Source: Acidiphilium acidophilum (lineage in GTDB: Bacteria; Pseudomonadota; Alphaproteobacteria; Acetobacterales; Acetobacteraceae). Taken from it: a stretch of DNA of 64,000 nt. The stretch's first letter is position 1, and each line of letters opens with the position of its first letter. The notes below the pieces were generated by a model. It ran no database searches. It saw nothing but the letters and a program-made list of their open reading frames with translations, and had not been told where the DNA came from. The stretch spans positions 558,001 through 622,000 of the forward strand of contig NZ_JAWXYB010000018.1 of NCBI RefSeq assembly GCF_033842475.1, read 5' to 3'. Made by a program: the position numbers and the translations under genes. Shown here one piece after another: positions 41,960-54,583 of this stretch.

Positions 41960-42304
41960 TTAGCGGCCCCCCTCAGCGGGCGGGTCCGTCTCGAAAAACC
42001 GCGCCATCGTCACCGCATCCCCCACCAGCGCCGCCCGCACCGCCGCCACCCCCGTCGTATCCGCGACAACCACGACCCGGGAAAACCACGGCACCACCCC
42101 GCGCGCCCGCGCCAGAAACAGCCGCCCCAGCGCCTCCGCCGCCGGCCCGCGCGGCGCGCAGCACGCGCACCCGATGCCGTGCAACGGGTTCGCCGCCAGC
42201 CGGAACCGCTCGCACGCCACCCCCTCCGTCACCGCCGCATCCCCCGCCACCAGCACCGCATCCCCCGGCGTCACCGCCCCGCCAACCACCACCCCGATCC
42301 GCAT
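41960..42304 (-). CDS. Uncharacterised 114-residue protein with a CxCC motif
   Basis: ATG 42304 (MRIGVVVGGAVTPGDAVLVAGD) has AGGGAGGG a few bases upstream. The protein has a beta-alpha character at the N-terminus, a cysteine cluster GIGCACCAPRG near residue 45, a helical segment (AEALGRLFLARARGVVPWF) and VVVVADTTGVAAVRAALVGD. The CxCC cluster could hold a metal. It is divergent from metH with a 61-bp spacer. A role near metal or cobalamin handling is only a guess from the neighbours. Confidence 0.6.
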   Translation of the reverse strand: MRIGVVVGGAVTPGDAVLVAGDAAVTEGVACERFRLAANPLHGIGCACCAPRGPAAEALGRLFLARARGVVPWFSRVVVVADTTGVAAVRAALVGDAVTMARFFETDPPAEGGR

Positions 42305-42365
42305 CCCACCCTCCCTGTTCATCGCCGATTGGAAATGTTCGCCTCTTCCTATATTACGAGACATC

Positions 42366-45848
<3,483 letters not shown>

Positions 45849-45963
45849 CAAACCAGCCTGCCTCATCTCCCTTCGCGATGTCGGATCGGCGGCAACCCAT
45901 CGATCCGACCGCGCGTCCCGCGTCTCACCTTGCTTGTTCTACGGATAAGCCGTATAAGTCACA

Positions 45964-46227
45964 ATGGATATCGAGTTCGACGATGCCAAGGACGCGGCAA
46001 ATATCGCCAAACACGGCATATCGCTCGCCCTTGGTGCCGTCATCCTCGAAAACGCCGTGGGCAAAACGATCGACGATCGACAGAACTACGGCGAAACCCG
46101 CGTCAACGCCTTCGGATTGATCGCCGGCCGTCTCTTTGTCTGCACCACCACGATGCGCGGCGAAACCTATAGGATCATCTCGGTTCGCAAGGCGAGCCGC
46201 CAGGAGCAACGCCTATGGCTATCGTAA
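45964..46227 (+). CDS. BrnT-type toxin
   Basis: 87 residues matching the BrnT RelE-like ribonuclease fold: MDIEFDDAKDAANIAKHGISL at the N-terminus (the W/D-x3-N-x2-K-H-G pattern), then FGLIAGRLFVCTTTMRGETYRIISVRKASRQEQRLW with the conserved Arg residues. Such toxins cleave RNA and are neutralised by an antitoxin encoded just downstream. Here the stop overlaps the next start by 13 bases, typical of toxin-antitoxin modules. The usual BrnA ribbon-helix-helix antitoxin is replaced by an XRE-type protein. Confidence 0.85.
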   Translation: MDIEFDDAKDAANIAKHGISLALGAVILENAVGKTIDDRQNYGETRVNAFGLIAGRLFVCTTTMRGETYRIISVRKASRQEQRLWLS

Positions 46228-46562
46228 AAGTCACCCAAGACCTGATCGAAACATCACTGCGCGCCATCGATTGGCCCGCGCAGGACGCCAAGACCGACAA
46301 CGATATCGCCCGGGAAATCGCCACCAACCCGGATGCCGCCCCGATCCTCTCCGCCGCCCAAACCGCCGCCGCCATCACCCGCCTGATCCGCCAGCGCCTC
46401 GGCATCACCCAAACCGAATTCGCCGCCCGCTACCAAATCCCGATCGGCACCCTGCGCGACTGGGAACAAAACCGCAAACAACCCGACGCCCCCGCCATGG
46501 CCTACCTGCGCGTCATAGCCCGCGAACCAGAAATCGTCGCCCGCGCCCTGATCCCCGCATGA
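46215..46562 (+). CDS. XRE-type helix-turn-helix antitoxin partner of BrnT
   Basis: 115 residues. The C-terminal half RLGITQTEFAARYQIPIGTLRDWEQNRKQPD is an XRE/HigA-like helix-turn-helix with the TQxEFA and LRDWEQ signatures. The N-terminal half (SLRAIDWPAQDAKTDNDIAREIATNPDA) is acidic and could wrap the toxin. It overlaps brnT by 13 bases, so the two are made together. The helix-turn-helix probably binds the module promoter for autoregulation; no operator could be assigned with certainty. Confidence 0.82.
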   Translation: MAIVKVTQDLIETSLRAIDWPAQDAKTDNDIAREIATNPDAAPILSAAQTAAAITRLIRQRLGITQTEFAARYQIPIGTLRDWEQNRKQPDAPAMAYLRVIAREPEIVARALIPA

Positions 46563-46605
46563 CCGCGGCGCTGATTCCGGCTCAAAATCAAGAAAAAGCA
46601 AAAGA

Positions 46606-46636
46606 CTTCTTTTTGCAAAAAGAAGCAAAAACTTTC
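46606..46636 (+). repeat. Dispersed A/T-stem hairpin element, copy C
   Basis: The stem CTTCTTTTT / AAAAAGAAG (46606-46614 and 46617-46625) has loop GC and is followed by CAAAAACTTTC, the same arrangement as the copies at 19783 and 53925. It lies 44 bases after the antitoxin stop, where it could terminate that transcript. Confidence 0.7.
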
Positions 46637-46654
46637 AATAATGCAACAACCGTA

Positions 46655-46680
46655 GGGCGGAAAAGCAAGCGTAATCCGCC
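46655..46680 (+). repeat. Short hairpin of the GTAGGGCGGA...TCCGCC type
   Basis: GGCGGA (46656-46661) pairs with TCCGCC (46675-46680) across AAAGCAAGCGTAA. A GTAGG lead-in and GCGTAA loop like this occur in many proteobacterial intergenic spaces. A second example with a different stem lies at 51615. Confidence 0.55.
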
Positions 46681-46734
46681 TTCCTTTTGTAATACTCAAG
46701 CAAGAACGTGTTTTATAAAATGAAGCAAAAATTA

Positions 46735-47229
46735 TTAATCGTCGCGCTTGGTCAATCCCGATATAACCGCCACCAGAATAAGACTTGCACCCCAACCAAA
46801 TAACGTCTCAAACCAAACACATATTTGCATGATTAGCCCCAGGTTCATTCGAAACCCATCCGCCTCGACAACCCTCGGCGTCATCGGCCCCCAACTTGAC
46901 TCTTGGCCTAGGTCTCCTACGGGCAACAATACGTTGAGCGAGTACATAGGTGGGAAAAACTCCGTATATTCCGGCGGCAGTGACTTGCACCGCGTCCAGA
47001 CAGGATTTTTATCCAGCGGCGGACGGCAGGACGCATAGGCCGGATTCTGAAAGACGATCGGATCGCTCGGTGCAAAGGCGCCGTTATTCGCCCCGACATA
47101 GTAAAACCCGGTGCAGATCAGCCAGACAAAAATTGAAATAAATACTAGTTTAAGTGGTCGATAGCCATAATCAACCAGACCGCCGTAGCAAGAATGAAGC
47201 TTGCCTATCCGTTTGACACCCACACCCAC
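46735..47229 (-). pseudogene. C-terminal fragment of an IS-split repeat membrane protein
   Basis: The native part ends at 47199, next to the insertion-sequence boundary; the codons before it (MGVGVKRIGKL) belong to the insertion end. It reads CYGGLVDYGYRPLKL, a membrane helix (LVFISIFVWLICTGFYYVG), a periplasmic-looking loop with four cysteines or so (ASCRPPLD, WTRCKSLPP), and a second helix (WFETLFGWGASLILVAVIS). Without the insertions it continues in frame from the middle fragment 48280-48467 and the N-terminal fragment at 51486-50398. The domain resembles the C-terminal membrane part of large pentapeptide-like proteins. Confidence 0.88.
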
Positions 47230-48279
47230 TAGATCTAGTTCCAGCCATGAATACCTTGGCTCGTGAAGATCTGCCTTTCCCCCAGTCTCTGCCGGAATTC
47301 CAGCGCATTTTCCCCGACGACGCGGCGTGCGCCGATTATCTCGAAAAGGCCCGGTGGAGTGATGGGTTTGCCTGCCCGTGGTGCGGCGTTATCGGCGAAC
47401 CATTCCGTTTCGCGGCGCGCCCCGGCGTGCTGCGCTGCCGAGCCTGTCGCAAAGACGTTGGCCTGATGGCCGGGACCGTTATGGAGCGCAGCCACACACC
47501 GTTGTCGATCTGGTTCTGGGCGGCTTATTTGATCGCCAGTCAAACGCCAGGAATGTCGGCGGTCCAATTTCAGCGGCAACTCGGCCTTTCGCGCTATGAG
47601 ACGGCCTTCGGCATCCTTCATAAGCTGCGCGCTGGGATGGTGCGCCCCGAGCGCGATAAGATTGGCGGCAAGCCGCAAGAACATGTTGAAGTGGATGAAA
47701 CCTGGGTCGGAGGACGAACCCGTGGCGCAGGCCGGGGCGTCCATCACAAGGTTCTCGTCTCTTGCGCCGTAGAGGTGCGCCACCGCAAGCCGGGAACCAA
47801 ACTCGACAGACGTAAAGACGGTCGCTACGCGGGACGTGTTCGTCTCGCTGTCGTCCCCGACCGTAGCGCTCATTCGCTCTGTGGATTCATCGAAAAGGCC
47901 GTCGCTCCTGGATCGCTGATCGTCACCGACGAATGGAGCGGATACACTAGCCTCGGAAAGCGGGGATTCGACCACCACGCAATTGCTGAATGCGCTGACC
48001 CGGAGGTCGCGGAAGAATTCCTGCCGATCATTCACTTGGTTTTCGCCAATCTGAAGACCTGGATCGACGGCATCCATCACGGGGTCAGCGCCAAGCATCT
48101 ACAAGCCTACCTCAACGAATTCACATTTCGGTTCAATCGACGCTTCTATCCCTTCAACGCGTTCCGCTCGCTGCTCGCAATCGCGGGCGGGGCAGCCGCT
48201 CCGACCTTTGACGGGCTGTATTCCGGGGAATGGGCCCACCCCACATTTAGTGGGTGTGGGTGACAACCGGATAGGCAAG
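47200..48279 (+). mobile_element. IS1595-family insertion sequence, 1080 bp
   Basis: The ends are CTTGCCTATCCGTTTGACAC (left, from 47200) and CTTGCCTATCCGGTTGTCAC (right, on the minus strand from 48279), both followed by CCACACCCACTA. Exact 8-bp target duplications GAATGAAG flank it (47192-47199 and 48280-48287), the size expected for IS1595. It carries one intact transposase gene. It sits inside the 576-codon membrane-protein gene. Confidence 0.95.
47247..48263 (+). CDS. IS1595-family transposase
   Basis: 338 residues. An N-terminal zinc ribbon (FACPWCG ... LRCRACRKDVGLMAGTVME) and the helix-turn-helix-like QLGLSRYETAFGILHKLR precede the ISXO2-type catalytic core: EVDETWVGGRTRG, LIVTDEWSGY and HLVFANLKTWIDGIHHGVSAKH, ending LNEFTFRFNRRFYP. 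These are the DDE/N positions of IS1595 transposases. The frame is complete and the stop falls just before the right inverted repeat, so the element could be active. Confidence 0.94.
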   Translation: MNTLAREDLPFPQSLPEFQRIFPDDAACADYLEKARWSDGFACPWCGVIGEPFRFAARPGVLRCRACRKDVGLMAGTVMERSHTPLSIWFWAAYLIASQTPGMSAVQFQRQLGLSRYETAFGILHKLRAGMVRPERDKIGGKPQEHVEVDETWVGGRTRGAGRGVHHKVLVSCAVEVRHRKPGTKLDRRKDGRYAGRVRLAVVPDRSAHSLCGFIEKAVAPGSLIVTDEWSGYTSLGKRGFDHHAIAECADPEVAEEFLPIIHLVFANLKTWIDGIHHGVSAKHLQAYLNEFTFRFNRRFYPFNAFRSLLAIAGGAAAPTFDGLYSGEWAHPTFSGCG

Positions 48280-48467
48280 GAATGAAGTACCTCGGATAAT
48301 CCCCGATAGATAAATCGGGCAGCCGGCCAGATCGGACGAGGACACCACCAAGCCGACGTCTTCGAGGTTCCACCGATCAAACCGCACTGCCGTTTGCGGC
48401 GCTCAAATCCAATGCCAATTTCGCGAGCAACTTCATAGTGCCCAGATGTCCGCAAAACGTTCCTAAG
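48280..48467 (-). pseudogene. Middle fragment of the IS-split repeat membrane protein
   Basis: 188 bases stranded between two insertion sequences. In the minus-strand frame they read LRNVLRTSGHYEVAREIGIG, FERRKRQCGLIGG and, at the other end, AARFIYRGLSEVLHS. This joins WLC of the N-terminal piece and CYGGLVDYGYRP of the C-terminal piece. After subtracting one copy of each target duplication the length keeps the frame on both sides (185 plus 457 bases, divisible by three). Confidence 0.82.
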
Positions 48468-50397
48468 ACCCAACTTCCACAGTGACGAAAAAAATAAAGT
48501 GATATTACAACGGGATAGAGGCCGTTTTGAGTTTTAGGCACCACAGGAATTCAGGTGGCGGGTTCACGTGATTTGGATGATGGCATCTCCTGGAACACGG
48601 GTGGCAGGCTCAACCCGACGGCACGGCAGACGGGATCGATGCTGGCGCGTGGGGCAGTTCGAAGCCGGGCTCGACGACCGTCCTGTTCGACGTCGACGAC
48701 GCTGAGATCGGCGAGGTCATCGATGATCTGCTGCCATTCTGGCATGGGGTCTTTGCGTTTCGCGAGACGCGCAAGCAGTTCATGCCGGAGAATGAGGGCG
48801 AGAAACGTGCAGAAAATATGCCCGCGGATCGCAGCGTCGGTGCGGTGGTAAACCGGGCGGGTAGCCATCAAGGTCTTGCTGGCCAGGAAGCTTTGCTCGA
48901 CCGAGAGGAGCTGGCGATAACGCAGGACCACCGCGAGCGGCGAGAGCTTCATGTTGGTTCTCAGCACGAACAGCCCGTCGAAGGCAGCGTCTGCCTCGAC
49001 CTTTGCCGGATCGATGGCAAAGCCGGCGCCGTCGGGAGCGACAAGGAACCGTCGATACCCGCTGTTGCCGACGAGGGCCTTGTCACCCTGGGATAATTTG
49101 CGGGTGAGATCGCTCAGCAGCTTGGCACGTGTTTCAGCATCTTTGCGCGCCTCCTCGGGATTGCGGCAGACGATGTAGCGGCGACCGGCGATCTTCACCT
49201 CCTTCACGGCCAATTCGGTTGCCCCTTTCTGACGCGGGATGATCAGCGGCACGCTGACCCCGTCATCATTCAGAACCGTGTCGCGGATCTCCTTGCTGGA
49301 CCGTTCGCGGGCCCCGAGGATGTAGTCGATACCCTGCGCCTCGAGTTGGGCGATCGTCGCCGCGCTGATCATGCCGCGATCCGCGACGACGCAGGCGCGG
49401 TTGATGCCGAAGCGCGATCGCAGCCGTTCGACCACGGGGAGCAGCGTGGTGACATCGGTCGTGTTGCCTGGCCACAGGAACGAGGTGATCGGCCGATCGT
49501 TCTCGTCGAGCACGATCCCCAGCACGACCTGATTGAGTTGCGGGCGATAATCCTTCGAGTGACCGCGTTGCCCGAGTGTCGCACCACCACGCCCTTCGAA
49601 ATACAGCGAGGTGGTGTCGAAGAATGCGACGACCGCCGCGCCGAACAACGCTCGTCGATGTGCGTACAGCGCCTCCTCGATCACCTCCGCCTGGTATCTC
49701 TCCCGGGCATCATCCGGTGTGACCGGGGCGATCGGCTCACCGAGCCAGGCCATCGCCTTGTAGGCGTGATCGAGGGTGATCCCGTCTGCGCCGGGCACCT
49801 CGATGGTTTCCCGCCATGACGCGGCACGGCGGTCGGATCCCGATACCATCAGCCGATGCAGGACGGTGAGATAGACTGCGCGCTCGACATCAAAGCCGAA
49901 ATGCCGATCAGCGAGGTGCTGGCGTAGACTCCCGGCACACCCCGTTTCCTGCCAAAGTCGGCCGAACACCAGATCGGGGCCGATACTGCGTCGTCGCAGT
50001 TCTGCCAATTCGCCCCGGTAGAACCGCGACAGCACGATCGACCGCCGCGAATGTCTGGCGGCCGACGCGATCAGGCCATCGAGCAAGCCAGAGTTTTCGA
50101 CATCGTCGCGCCGACCAAGCGTGCTGATGACCTTCTGAACGTGGCGACCACCCTCGCGGACGTTCTGGACAAGGTAGAGATACTCGTACTGACCGATCTT
50201 CTTGACACGGATGAACATGGCTGCTGACCTACGATAAGGCAGAGCACCATGCCGAATCGGCATGAGTCAAGAAAAAATCATCAACCTATTCCTGCCAACC
50301 TCACGTGTTTAGCACCACATTTTGTCTGGCCGTTCAAAAACTCGCGGAATTCTGCGACTTTTTCACGCGCGTGAAGGGCAAAGTGTCGAAGTTGGGT
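48468..50397 (-). mobile_element. IS1634-type (IS4 superfamily) insertion sequence, about 1930 bp
   Basis: Terminal inverted repeats are ACCCAACTTCCACA at 48468 and, on the minus strand from 50397, ACCCAACTTCGACA. AAG occurs directly at both outer edges (48465-48467 and 50398-50400). Only a 3-bp duplication is visible, shorter than the 5-6 bp usual for the family, so the outer boundary may be off by a few bases. Excising the element plus one AAG restores the interrupted frame exactly. Confidence 0.85.
48551..50218 (-). CDS. IS1634-family transposase
   Basis: 555 residues from ATG 50218 (MFIRVKKIGQYEYLYLVQNV), the normal family start; an upstream frame extension is not homologous. The catalytic core shows VVAFFDTTSLYFEGRG (first Asp), NRACVVADRGMISAATIAQL (second Asp) and, near the C-terminus, RYRQLLSVEQSFLASKTLMATRPVYHR (Glu). 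A region IDYILGARERSSKEIRD lies between. The gene is intact and fills the element. Confidence 0.94.
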   Translation of the reverse strand: MFIRVKKIGQYEYLYLVQNVREGGRHVQKVISTLGRRDDVENSGLLDGLIASAARHSRRSIVLSRFYRGELAELRRRSIGPDLVFGRLWQETGCAGSLRQHLADRHFGFDVERAVYLTVLHRLMVSGSDRRAASWRETIEVPGADGITLDHAYKAMAWLGEPIAPVTPDDARERYQAEVIEEALYAHRRALFGAAVVAFFDTTSLYFEGRGGATLGQRGHSKDYRPQLNQVVLGIVLDENDRPITSFLWPGNTTDVTTLLPVVERLRSRFGINRACVVADRGMISAATIAQLEAQGIDYILGARERSSKEIRDTVLNDDGVSVPLIIPRQKGATELAVKEVKIAGRRYIVCRNPEEARKDAETRAKLLSDLTRKLSQGDKALVGNSGYRRFLVAPDGAGFAIDPAKVEADAAFDGLFVLRTNMKLSPLAVVLRYRQLLSVEQSFLASKTLMATRPVYHRTDAAIRGHIFCTFLALILRHELLARLAKRKDPMPEWQQIIDDLADLSVVDVEQDGRRARLRTAPRASIDPVCRAVGLSLPPVFQEMPSSKSREPAT

Positions 50398-51486
50398 AAG
50401 ACACAGCCATGGTTGAGGTCTAAAAGTCGTCGCTAAATTAATTTGCGGATTGTCAACGACAATTTGTGTCTCAAGCCACCTGATGCATGCATCAGCGTCC
50501 GAGGATCGGGGACTTTCAAGTGTGGAATAGGTAAATCCATCAATGATTCTTTGGGTCGTCGCGGAATTATTATCGTCTGAAAATGTGCGTACAGCCGCTT
50601 GGCCCAAAAAAATGATGCCGTTCGGCACGCGTATTTCATCCAAGAACAAAATTCCGTTGACACGCATGGACTGGCAATTTAGCGCAATACCCGCGGATTT
50701 AAAAAAACCAAGTCTGCAAGACAAATCACCTTGAATATGAGCCCCTAGTAATCTTACTTCTCCTGCTGCCACAAATTCTTGGTCGATATCGACGTTACGC
50801 CTAACATTAATTCCGTCCATAGCTAATTGATTATTAAAAACACCCCGTCTGCAGGAAACACTTCCACCAATCTTGGCACTTAGGAGCCGGACAGCACCTG
50901 CAGCAACGAAACCATCATCAAAATATATAGAACCGCTAACGTCAATTCCGTCAGCGTTGATCGAAATGCCGGTTGGACCTTCGATAAAAAATCCGTGTCG
51001 GCAGTTAAAGTCGCCGACTATATGTGCGCCTAATAGACGGACTTCTCCCCTCGAAAGGAAACCATTGCGCAGGAACAGGCCAGCAGAGCACCTGATTCTA
51101 TCAGCTTTCAATCCCGCTATACTACTTCCTTGAAAATTCAACAGTCCAACGACAGTCGAATCATTAAGAATAATTTCTTCAAATATGCGGCAGTTTAGCA
51201 ATAAAATGCCAAAATTTATTGATGTACATTGGAGGTCAAGAAGCCCTATGATACAGCCACCAGAAATACAGATTCCCTTCTCATGAATGGGAGTATTTTC
51301 ATCGCCGCCAACTGCAAGAAATCTTATGTATTCGGCACGAATAGTATTCGTTTCGTCAGATAATATAGGAAGCGCGGTTTCAAATTGCGCAATCTCACCG
51401 GCCGCAACAGCAGTTAGTAGTTTGCGCTCAGCGGTTCCGAGGGGTAAAAATTCTGCAAGCGTTGTCCCCCTTGGTCGCTGGCTCAT
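50281..51486 (-). pseudogene. N-terminal fragment of the IS-split repeat membrane protein
   Basis: Native codons run from ATG 51486 to 50398 (363 codons); the remaining codons read into the insertion sequence. The N-terminus LAEFLPLGTAERKLLTAVAAGE is followed by about six repeats of roughly 40 residues, for example GEVRLLGAHIVGDFNCRHGF, GAVRLLSAKIGGSVSCRRGV and GEVRLLGAHIQGDLSCRLGF. The alternating Leu/Ala/Gly pattern suggests a beta-helix-like solenoid as in pentapeptide proteins. The full restored protein (576 residues) would be a solenoid followed by a helical linker and a two-helix membrane anchor. AT-richer than surrounding genes; function unknown. Confidence 0.88.
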
Positions 51487-51948
51487 TTATTGATTATGAC
51501 ATCCGAAGCGTTATGCGGCAATATCGGCGTCCGGCCTCTAACGACATAAAAAAAATAGGAGCAACCGGTCCTCGTCCAACGTCCATCTCTTCACAACCCG
51601 ATACATGTCCAGCAAGCGTAGGTTGGGCAGAGCCCTTGCGAAGCCCAACAATCTCATCCGACCAATGCGTCCAATCCGCTGATCCCGCCATCACGCAACG
51701 GATCGCCACGCCGCCGGCCCAACTCCTCAAAAACCTCGAAGCCTCCCCGTTACGGAAAACCCCCAGCCTCAAACCCCCGCCGCCGTCTCCAAGATCGCAT
51801 CCGGCATGACCTCGACCCGCGTCCATCGCCATCGTCCCCGCCACATGTAAAAACCTGTAAATCCCACCCCCACCAACCCCCTCTCACCTTCCTGTGACCC
51901 CACCCCATCGATATAGCCGCCGAGGAATATCGAAACAGGAAGCTTCAC
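51487..51948. other. 462-bp non-coding stretch
   Basis: No open frame here looks like a gene. It contains a hairpin repeat at 51615-51650 and, at its right end, the promoter-proximal part and Shine-Dalgarno (AGGAAG) of the outer-membrane gene that starts at 51949. The left end is the 5' side of the split membrane-protein gene. Confidence 0.7.
51615..51650 (+). repeat. Hairpin repeat of the GTAGGTTGGGC...GCCCAAC type
   Basis: GTTGGGC (51622-51628) pairs with GCCCAAC (51643-51649) across AGAGCCCTTGCGAA, preceded by AGCGTAG. Such GTAGGTTGGGC hairpins are widespread small intergenic repeats in proteobacteria. Confidence 0.6.
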
Positions 51949-53184
51949 ATGCAAAAAACCACCTCAGGCCCGCGCCTCGCAACCCTCATGGCGACCGGCG
52001 CCGCCCTCCTCATGCTCCACCCCGCAACCGCCGCCGCCCTCAACGGCCCGTCCTGGCAGAACATCGATGGCGGCCCCCTCGGTCCCCTGCAAATCTCCGC
52101 CGGCATCGATGGCTATTTTTACGGCCAATCCGGCACCGCCACCGACTCCGGCCAAAGCGTCGCCGGCACCAAATCGGTCGGCGCGGAAATCGACGATTTC
52201 ATGATCGAGATGCGCAAGCCCACCGGACTCATCCAGTTCACCCTGCAGGCCGCCGAATATACCAACATCAACCTCGGCACCAATCGGCCCAAGGAAATCA
52301 ACGGCAACGCCTACACCACCGGCCCCATCCGCGCCGCCTTCATCACCCTCGCCCCGAGCAAAGCCTTCAACATCTCGGTCGGGCAGGTCAACTCGGTCGA
52401 AGGCTACGAATCGGCCTTCGCCTGGAACAACCCGGTCGCCCTGCGCACCGTCATCGCCGCCGTCCAGAACAGCGAAAGCCGCGGCATCTCCGCCGTCTAC
52501 AACCACGGCAAATTCAGCGGCACCATCGTCTTCGGCGACGGCTACGACACCGGCGTGTTCAACTACCTCCAATTCCTCCTCACCGAGACTTTCGACGCCA
52601 GCAACAGCCTGAACCTCTACGGCGGCGTCGCCCTCGGCGTCACCGGCCCCAACGCCTTCGCCTACGGCAGCGGCGGTGAAAGCGCAGGCGGCGCCAACGG
52701 CGTCGGCGGTCAGGGCCAGTTGGCTGCCGTCAATTCCAACCTGATCGGCGCATGGTACACATGGAGCCACGGCGGCCTCTCGCTCACCCCGGAAGCCCAA
52801 TACCAATACGCCAAACCCCTCCACCGCTACGAATTCGCCACCTCCGGCGGCGTGTCGGACGATATCCCCAAAACCACCAGCAACTTCGCAACCGCCGTCT
52901 TCGCCGACTACCAATTCGCCAAATCGCCCTATTCGCTCGGTGCCTGGGTCGAATACGCCACCAGCAAAGGCTCCGCCGCGCAGGATGCCTGGTTCGTCGC
53001 CCCCAACGCCCAGCTCGTCGGCCTCGCCATCGCCCCCACCTGGCAGCACCGCAACCTCTACGCCCGGCTCAACATGGGCTACGTCCACCTGCTCGACCAG
53101 GGCACCCCCGCCGCCGGCTTCGGCAATGCCGGGCAAGGCACCAACCAGGTCGTCGCCACCATGGAATTCGGGCTGGTCTTCTAA
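51949..53184 (+). CDS. Outer-membrane beta-barrel (porin-like) protein
   Basis: 411 residues with AGGAAG 8 bases upstream of the ATG. A signal peptide (LATLMATGAALLMLHPATAAA) is followed by amphipathic beta strands typical of a 16-18-strand barrel: LQISAGIDGYFYGQSG, GLIQFTLQAAEYTNINLG, NISVGQVNSVEGYESAF, SLNLYGGVALGVTG, SPYSLGAWVEYATSK, and a C-terminal VVATMEFGLVF ending in Phe, the signal for BAM insertion. It resembles the outer-membrane-beta-barrel (BBP2-like) group. Substrate cannot be predicted; neighbours give no clue. Confidence 0.85.
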   Translation: MQKTTSGPRLATLMATGAALLMLHPATAAALNGPSWQNIDGGPLGPLQISAGIDGYFYGQSGTATDSGQSVAGTKSVGAEIDDFMIEMRKPTGLIQFTLQAAEYTNINLGTNRPKEINGNAYTTGPIRAAFITLAPSKAFNISVGQVNSVEGYESAFAWNNPVALRTVIAAVQNSESRGISAVYNHGKFSGTIVFGDGYDTGVFNYLQFLLTETFDASNSLNLYGGVALGVTGPNAFAYGSGGESAGGANGVGGQGQLAAVNSNLIGAWYTWSHGGLSLTPEAQYQYAKPLHRYEFATSGGVSDDIPKTTSNFATAVFADYQFAKSPYSLGAWVEYATSKGSAAQDAWFVAPNAQLVGLAIAPTWQHRNLYARLNMGYVHLLDQGTPAAGFGNAGQGTNQVVATMEFGLVF

Positions 53185-53218
53185 CCCCACAGCGCCGGGG
53201 GAAGGGTATCCCGAAACC

Positions 53219-53848
53219 CTATCCCCCCGCCGCCCGCAAAAACCCCGCCACATCCCCGCTCAACATCAGCGGCACGAACCGCTCGATCCGCTCATCCGGC
53301 CAATCCCACCACGCCAGCGCCTGCAACCGCGCAATCGTCTCCGCCTCGAACCGATACCGCACCAGCCGCGCCGGGTTCCCCGCCACAATCCCATAAGCCG
53401 GCACATCCCGCGTCACCACCGCCCGCGCCCCGATCACCGCCCCATTGCCGATCGTCACGCCGGACATGATCACAACATCCATCCCCACCCACACATCATG
53501 CCCGATCACCACATCCCCCTTCGATCGCGGATGCCCCGCAATCCCCCAGGCCGAACGCAGCCTCACATTGAACGGATACGTCGTCACCCAATCGGCCCGA
53601 TGCTCGCCCCCCAGCAATATCTGCACCCCTTCCGCAATCGAACAGAACTGCCCGACCACCAGCACACCCCCCTCATCCTCGAACTGAACCGAAGGATTGC
53701 CATAACTCCCCCGCCCGATCGCATAACGCGGCAACACCCGCCGCAACTCATTCCGCTCCAACCAAGCGAGATCACGCTCCTTGCGCTCATCCCGGCCTGC
53801 CACTTTGTGCAACCTCCGCCTGACGCGCTGAAGCCATCCCCACATCAT
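53219..53848 (-). CDS. CatB-type xenobiotic/antibiotic O-acetyltransferase (hexapeptide repeat)
   Basis: 209 residues, start at the double ATG 53848/53845 with AAGGAG upstream. The left-handed beta-helix signature is clear: VVIGHDVWVGMDVVIMSGVTIGNGAVIGARAVVTRDVPAYGIVAGNPARLVRYRF. GQFCSIAEGVQILLGGEHRADWVTTYPF matches the CatB/Vat substrate-loop region. Members acetylate chloramphenicol, streptogramins or sugars; the chromosomal copy of an environmental bacterium may modify a surface sugar instead. Confidence 0.9.
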   Translation of the reverse strand: MMWGWLQRVRRRLHKVAGRDERKERDLAWLERNELRRVLPRYAIGRGSYGNPSVQFEDEGGVLVVGQFCSIAEGVQILLGGEHRADWVTTYPFNVRLRSAWGIAGHPRSKGDVVIGHDVWVGMDVVIMSGVTIGNGAVIGARAVVTRDVPAYGIVAGNPARLVRYRFEAETIARLQALAWWDWPDERIERFVPLMLSGDVAGFLRAAGG

Positions 53849-53924
53849 ATTAACTCCTTCTAACGAGGCCCTGCGTTATTGCGGGGAGGGAAGCAATTGA
53901 GGGAGGGTAAGGCAAGGGAAAAAA

Positions 53925-53960
53925 GGGTTCTTTTTTGCAAAAAAGAACCAAAAAACTCTC
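53925..53960 (+). repeat. Dispersed A/T-stem hairpin element, copy D1
   Basis: The stem GGTTCTTTTTT / AAAAAAGAACC (53926-53936 and 53939-53949) has loop GC and is followed by AAAAAACTCTC. It forms the left half of a head-to-head pair with D2, 45 bases away. Confidence 0.78.
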
Positions 53961-54005
53961 TGAATCTGAGCCCGTGCCCTCTGAAACACCCGTGCCCCAA
54001 CTAAC

Positions 54006-54040
54006 AAAAGTTTTTTGCTACTTTTTTTCAAAAAAGTAGC
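54006..54040 (-). repeat. Dispersed A/T-stem hairpin element, copy D2 (inverted)
   Basis: The stem GCTACTTTTTT / AAAAAAGTAGC (54017-54027 and 54030-54040) is preceded by AAAAGTTTTTT. Read on the minus strand it has the same order as D1: hairpin, then AAAAAACTTTT. It shares the TACTTTTTT arms with copy B. Confidence 0.78.
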
Positions 54041-54583
54041 CCTTCTTCCCTTCACTACGCTTTCTCACCCCCCACCCCCTGTGATGAATAGGGTGCGTGT
54101 CCAGCAATGCGCCGTCTCACCCTCTTACCCATGCCGATGTGATCGGCCGGATCATCGAGATCCTCGAAGGACTCCTCGCGGTTCTCGCGGCGCAATACCC
54201 TGACGGCAACCTGACGACCGGCGTGCTCAACCTCACCTGCCGCCGCCTCGCAGCCTACCGTGCCAGCAACGACAACCCCATCTCACGCACCCCCGCGCCG
54301 ATTTCCCCGCCGCGCAGTGTCGGGCAGGGGAAACCGCGCGTGCCGTTCCCCACCCCGCGCAACCACGCTCCCCACAGTCCCGCGCACCCTCCTCACCGCA
54401 TCCCGGTCGAACGCCGTTCCGCCGCCGCACCCCCGCCGGAAAATCAAAAATCACGCCCCACACCCACGCTTTCGCACGCCCATATCGTTACGATAACAAA
54501 ACGAATAGCAGGGATCGCAAGCATTCGCTTCACCCGCCCCACCCGCTCTGATATCGTCCCGCCATGCCGCGCCCGCGCCTCTG

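Follow-up and report, generated by a model that had tools for sequence, protein, structure and literature searches.

An accessory gene interrupted by two insertion sequences in Acidiphilium acidophilum and its family of putative solenoid-tethered, channel-like membrane proteins

The window, a stretch of 64,000 nucleotides from the genome of Acidiphilium acidophilum (4.16 Mb in 21 contigs), contains one accessory gene that lies in three pieces on the minus strand, broken by the insertion of an IS1634-type and an IS1595-type element. As judged from sequence comparison, the proteins of the family to which this gene belongs are probably channel-like, derived from a channel and tethered by a solenoid. 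The interest of the locus is the family behind the broken gene, which is known from Acetobacteraceae, Hyphomicrobiales, Streptomyces, Rhodococcus and one cyanobacterium; no curated model of it was found and some of its records are misnamed, and it deserves a model and a better name.

One accessory gene broken into three pieces by two insertion sequences

The pieces, both elements with their target duplications and the neighbouring genes are listed in Table 1. No stop codon was present ahead of the proper end in the translations of the three pieces, which would suit recent insertions. The frame of piece 1 continues today into the insertion sequence to give an ORF of 401 amino acids (50281-51486). 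The G+C content was 0.449 for piece 1, 0.54 for piece 2 and 0.51 for piece 3, compared with 0.638 over the whole window; the deviation is smaller in the two intact relatives described below (0.593 and 0.586).

Table 1. Features of the interrupted gene and its surroundings (positions are those of the window).
Feature	Position	Strand	Basis or remark
metH-like neighbour, conserved locus anchor	42174..45848	+	C-terminal part matched in 13/13 genus genomes
BrnT-like ORF, slot flank	45964-46227	+	PF04365, E 5.2e-20
HTH ORF, overlaps BrnT-like ORF; slot flank	46215-46562	+	PF01381, E 5.2e-6
Piece 3	46735..47199	-	Two-helix membrane domain, loop motif, stop codon; matches P0004, P0005
Target duplication GAATGAAG, copy beside piece 3	47192..47199	.	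Flank comparison
IS1595-type insertion sequence, complete, 1080 bp	47200..48279	+	NF033547, inverted ends, 8-bp duplication
IS1595-type transposase ORF	47247-48263	+	NF033547, E 1.9e-59
Piece 2	48280..48468	-	Helical linker; matches P0004, P0005
Target duplication GAATGAAG, copy beside piece 2	48280..48287	.	Flank comparison
Target duplication TAAGA, copy beside piece 2	48464..48468	.	Flank comparison
IS1634-type insertion sequence, complete, 1928 bp	48469..50396	-	NF033559, inverted ends, duplication TAAGA
IS1634-type transposase ORF	48551-50263	-	NF033559, E 3e-100
Target duplication TAAGA, copy beside piece 1	50397..50401	.	Flank comparison
Piece 1	50397..51486	-	N-terminal helices and beta-solenoid, with the start codon; matches P0004, P0005
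Porin-like gene, other slot flank	51949..53184	+	PF07642, E 3.9e-23; flank common to G857

Each element shares with its family the transposase model, inverted ends and a target duplication (of 8 bp in the IS1595 family), and nothing unusual was seen in either. The inverted ends of the IS1634-type element comprise 14 nt (48468-48481 and 50384-50397, 93% complementary) and those of the IS1595-type element 35 nt (47200-47234 and 48245-48279, 91% complementary). Two further 99% copies of the former are present elsewhere in the genome, and the latter is the sole full copy found. The interruption of the gene is real and is ordinary genome decay.

A preliminary description of this DNA had proposed that two insertion sequences interrupt a single membrane-protein gene, and the three open pieces are present where it had placed them. 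Its frame arithmetic holds, the lengths from its coordinates adding up by hand calculation to 1731 nt (1089 + 185 + 457), that is, 577 codons including the stop. The proposal was borne out by two relatives from the same genus in which the gene is a single ORF across both junctions, P0004 (genome G008, 579 amino acids) and P0005 (G001, 643 amino acids). Piece 1 matched the G008 ORF with E 7.9e-78 (43% identity) and the G001 ORF with E 5.0e-52 (45%); the pairwise E values to P0004 and P0005 were 1e-15 and 3e-19 for piece 2, and 8e-44 and 4e-59 for piece 3, respectively. As sequence matches these are far beyond chance. The description had also suggested a search for homologues across the junctions and for an uninterrupted locus in a relative. 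Compared apart, without splicing, the pieces fell consecutively on the single intact ORFs, and in a five-row alignment they lie end to end and in order on P0004 and P0005; the intact G008 copy occupies the corresponding position and, like the broken gene of the window, is convergent with the metH-like gene. Of the residues conserved in the family, piece 3 has the motif of the loop and the glycine in the second helix (YSLNVLLPVGDLGQ and FGWGASLILVAVISGL).

The same description had named fragments that are separate genes in relatives as an observation that would speak against it. Two annotated ORFs of Roseomonas gilardii (L013) do meet near the first junction of the window, and L009, L013 and L014 each consist of two ORFs in their own records. 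However, in P0004 and P0005 both junctions lie within one ORF, and both insertions have target duplications, so that three separate genes are hardly conceivable; this reading was rejected as already contradicted by the intact relatives. The split in L013 is probably a separate break in that record: its first ORF ends in what looks like a frame-shifted tail, and neither P0004 nor P0005 is divided at this place.

Location, distribution and annotation of the family

The gene is variable, accessory cargo and was perhaps acquired. Piece 1 was matched in three of the 13 genus genomes (G000, G001 and G008), several of the 13 being incomplete (78-100%), and in five of 60 genomes, its own included (the same three, G026 and G051). 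In G857, a genome of the same species (83% complete), the flanks match window positions 45376-46685 at 97.1% and 51611-53735 at 97.7%, separated by 1066 bp of different sequence, which carries an ORF of 248 amino acids (G+C 0.416) with one weak match to uracil-DNA glycosylase (E 0.0028, below the cut-off). In all six further genus genomes compared, matches of window positions 45000-54500 to the 10-kb region beside the anchor gene, which we take to be metH, were confined to the metH end and to short repeats.

A tblastn search with P0004 matched 33 of 72,556 plasmid records (17 from Streptomyces, eight from Rhodococcus, two from Rhizobium and one each from six others) and none of 50,697 phage records, and three scans of viral contigs revealed no relative. 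The scan of genome contigs, which returned a single locus, relied on only two peptide patterns, and this is the probable reason for the low yield. With a profile of the linker and membrane part at a cut-off of E<=0.001, the genomes matched numbered 15 out of 200 for the bacterial family, 12 out of 289 for the class and 26 out of 398 for the phylum, the own genome being included in these tallies. The 26 matches of the phylum comprise 12 members of the protein family (among them the divergent L030), 10 pentapeptide channels, another pentapeptide protein (L038) and three marginal matches.

No Pfam or NCBIfam model reached its cut-off for the pieces, nor did any Pfam model for P0004 and P0005. In the accessible parts of the literature within the scope searched, no description of the family or of pentapeptide-repeat bacterial channels was found, and the family is poorly known, as the preliminary description had supposed. 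Among the Streptomyces plasmid proteins, H14-H16 are labelled 'membrane-associated oxidoreductase' and H7, H10 and H13 'oxidoreductase'. These proteins are homologous to the window family (with P0004 as tblastn query, 91-98% of its length is covered in these six, and identity is 24.7-26.0%) and differ from it in name only, support for an enzyme activity not having been found. That the family is an enzyme of this kind, as those labels would have it, is very improbable in view of the Pfam and NCBIfam results and of other records that read 'hypothetical protein'; the oxidoreductase was rejected as a label only.

The neighbouring genes give only hints to function. In a survey of 29 loci with a crude gene finder an anchor was present in 27, and 138 of 157 neighbour genes were scanned with Pfam, the 19 omitted being mostly short or doubtful ORFs and one of them a piece of a family gene. 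M20 peptidase was found in 7 of the 138, related peptidase models in 5-6, and other families at most three times each among the first 25 of 220 matched; since several of the loci are close relatives, no functional link is claimed. The copy of Rhizobium sp. SL42 is adjoined by Mrp-type antiporter genes, and that of Shinella has NhaC, RND efflux and urease accessory genes nearby. The Acaryochloris plasmid copy is overlapped by a CU044_2847-family gene and has a caspase-family gene nearby, which, together with the patchy, accessory distribution and the variable slot, would suit an anti-phage or conflict effector acting at the membrane. Such a role is nevertheless improbable: no PADLOC model matched the pieces or the intact P0004 and P0005, no defence neighbour recurred in the first 25 Pfam families listed for the 138 neighbour genes, and the family was absent from the phage records. 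A known defence family was rejected or left weak for lack of a PADLOC match.

Architecture and relation to pentapeptide-repeat K+ channels

In the intact members a beta-solenoid with units of 45-50 residues is followed by a helical linker and then by a pair of membrane helices, which are joined by a loop carrying a conserved motif. In the AlphaFold2 model of P0005, 10-residue blocks reached pLDDT values of 88-98 over residues 21-360, which form N-terminal helices followed by the beta-solenoid; the membrane part had pLDDT <50, and a separate model of the C-terminal part a mean of 43. The repeat lag was 49 residues in P0005 (55% identity) and 45 and 50 residues in piece 1 (21% and 18%), and the length of the solenoid varies widely between members. 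The solenoid and two-helix membrane domain of the preliminary description are thus in agreement with the P0005 model and the two hydrophobic helices, and its repeats of about 40 residues are corrected to the 45-50-residue unit by the lags. Its suggestion of a surface or defence-related family found no support in PADLOC or in the positive-inside count, which favoured neither topology clearly (29 of 51 membrane parts); the relation to pentapeptide-repeat K+ channels is absent from it.

A Foldseek search of the PDB with the whole P0005 model gave no match at E<=0.001, the best being a beta-helix lyase (E 0.029), with the pentapeptide protein QnrB1 at E 0.20. A sequence search of the PDB with the C-terminal profile gave seven weak matches, the best to a designed helical protein (E 0.0024); MthK was matched with E 8.2 over the region of the first helix.

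Membrane parts were collected from 51 distinct ORFs passing E<=1e-11 and reaching the end of the profile, window piece 3 included, and 46 of them, with a membrane part of <=165 residues, were used in the profile. The motif of the loop is YSLDxLLPxxxLGQxxxWxP-like, with Pro in 45/46, Asp in 38/46 and Gln in 32/46 of the rows, and the glycine of the second helix is present in all 46. At least two Cys residues occur in the loop of 32 of the 51, and a GYG-like filter in none of them.

The profile of linker and membrane part, run over the 398 genomes, retrieved 10 channels of 317-346 amino acids with E values from 1.8e-7 to 3.6e-4 (L031-L037 and L039-L041; PF00805 + PF07885). All 10 have pentapeptide repeats, a 2TM channel domain and the sequence TTLGYGD, and the three scanned passed the Pfam cut-offs for both Pentapeptide and Ion_trans_2. 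Common to these channels and the family are the order of solenoid, helical linker, a GYG.P motif before helix 1, loop and helix 2; unlike them, the family has a longer solenoid of 45-50-residue units that remains below the cut-off of the Pentapeptide model, and it is without the GYG filter.

Profile-profile comparison of the linker and first helix with the pentapeptide channels gave E 6.1e-7 (probability 92). The membrane domain alone gave E 4.8e-5 (probability 68) with 25 rows, over the first helix only, and E 1.1e-5 (probability 82) with 46 rows, through the pore loop; in the latter alignment YSLDVLLPVASIGQ of the family stands opposite YYSVVTFTTLGYGD of the channels, with a three-residue gap. 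Reversed-profile controls in six comparisons gave E values of 0.04-0.3, the generic Ion_trans_2 profile 0.011, not far from the 0.04 of its own reversed controls, and a profile of generic mixed with pentapeptide channels 0.0011 (probability 21), and the positive control, pentapeptide against generic channels, 5.5e-14. When single pentapeptide channels were aligned to the family profile with hhalign, all 10 had E<0.01 and seven E<0.001; at E<0.01 there was no match among 127 control hairpins, which came from 46 neighbour proteins and gave 0.039 at best, or among 29 generic Ion_trans_2 channels. Among the five best single-channel alignments, four were confined to the region of the first helix and one covered the pore loop. 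Since pentapeptide channels match the profile and generic channels and controls do not, the relation is specific to the former. Shared ancestry of the linker and membrane domain with those of the pentapeptide-repeat K+ channels is thus supported, with evidence that is good over the linker and first helix, fair over the pore loop and weak over the second helix.

Ion_trans_2 was not matched above its Pfam cut-off, the pieces giving no match to it at E<=1, and it was not among the families listed for 15 C-terminal parts at E<=10. Pentapeptide did not exceed its cut-off in any of the four relatives scanned, Pentapeptide_3 remaining below its cut-off of 27 bits in three of them (26.8, 25.9 and 16.6) and giving no match in P0004. 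The family fails the definition of a K+ channel, since the GYG-type selectivity filter is absent, and what is claimed here is the relation and a likely mode of work, not membership among K+ channels.

Proposed mode of action

The absent GYG filter would also suit a membrane-anchored solenoid scaffold in which the helices, derived from or resembling those of a channel, enclose no pore and the solenoid serves to bind partners at the membrane. The comparison statistics are strongest at the linker and first helix, possibly a shared tether, and the wide variation in solenoid length points the same way. However, the inter-helix loop is among the best conserved parts (by its Pro and Asp), which a mere anchor would not need, and the profile alignment continues through the pore loop; the scaffold is a possible but rather unlikely explanation.

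According to the channel-like reading, which we hold to be the probable one, the intact members would be tethered by the solenoid and probably tetrameric. The solenoid would probably lie in the cytoplasm and either bind a partner or sense a state; by way of the linker the signal would reach the membrane domain, in which the loop motif may line a pore with a selectivity other than for K+ or may form a closed sensor. In the window strain the gene would give at most the solenoid without the membrane part, as the 401-residue ORF, and since the membrane part is absent the function of the intact gene would be lost.

More tentatively still, the conserved Pro/Gln filter (LPxxxLGQ) might replace the K+ filter, the family then being a large class of bacterial P-loop channels with a selectivity for something other than K+, in which a beta-solenoid that varies in length acts as the gate; labels such as 'oxidoreductase' and 'hypothetical protein' would have kept the class from notice. 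We regard this as doubtful. If the proteins conduct, ion channels would gain a class that has a new filter and is gated by a solenoid; if they do not, a channel module would have turned into a sensor or an anchor.

The distant member L005 has an N-terminus that by eye is signal-like and would place its solenoid outside.

The variable slot and its edges

The variable slot occupied by the broken gene has edges that lie within or adjoin short recurring sequences (see the table), which were found repeatedly beside metH in related genomes and are possibly dispersed repeats acting as recombination points. On the metH-like side, the BrnT-like toxin ORF matched PF04365 with an E value of 5.2e-20, and the overlapping antitoxin-like ORF matched PF01381 and, weakly, MqsA. 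The same-species genome (G857) also has this pair; in G008, a same-genus genome with an intact relative, no such pair was found between the family gene and metH by script gene calls. Screening of the low-GC ORF occupying the slot in G857 with the PADLOC models gave no match, and its sole match was a weak one to uracil-DNA-glycosylase (E 0.0028).

Features of the slot, the IS1634 element and the family
Feature	Position	Remarks
BrnT-like toxin and overlapping HTH antitoxin-like ORFs	window 45964-46562	PF04365, PF01381
Variable-slot edges	window 46596-46687 and 51610-51785	in or adjoining short recurring sequences
248-aa low-GC ORF	L125:1608-2354	G857, same species; fills slot of the broken gene
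IS1634 copy	G000:C18:5981-7908	99% identical to window copy
IS1634 copy	G000:C18:3612813-3614740	99% identical to window copy
Distant family member	L005:997-2877	signal-like N-terminus by eye; long loop without the cysteines
Split relative, Roseomonas gilardii	L013:6983-8670	two ORFs in its record
Split relative, Microvirga lotononidis	L009:6710-8651	two ORFs in its record
Family copy, Acaryochloris plasmid pMB04	L014:5702-8338	recorded as two hypothetical ORFs
485-aa protein	L038:529-1983	four Pentapeptide_3 stretches, E 3.4e-32

Possible recent element activity and recurrent decay of the family gene

The two further IS1634 copies in the same genome (G000), nearly identical to that of the window, suggest recent activity of this element. 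Since the Roseomonas and Microvirga relatives are split at different places, decay of the family gene may recur.

Variation and gene surroundings

The N-terminus and cysteine-free long loop of the distant member indicate that topology may differ from branch to branch. The L038 protein, whose membrane part is devoid of the GYG filter and which was weakly matched by the linker profile, is a possible further branch. The start of the plasmid-borne copy overlaps a CU044_2847-family gene, and nearby are another member of that gene family and one of the caspase family; these surroundings resemble those of conflict systems.
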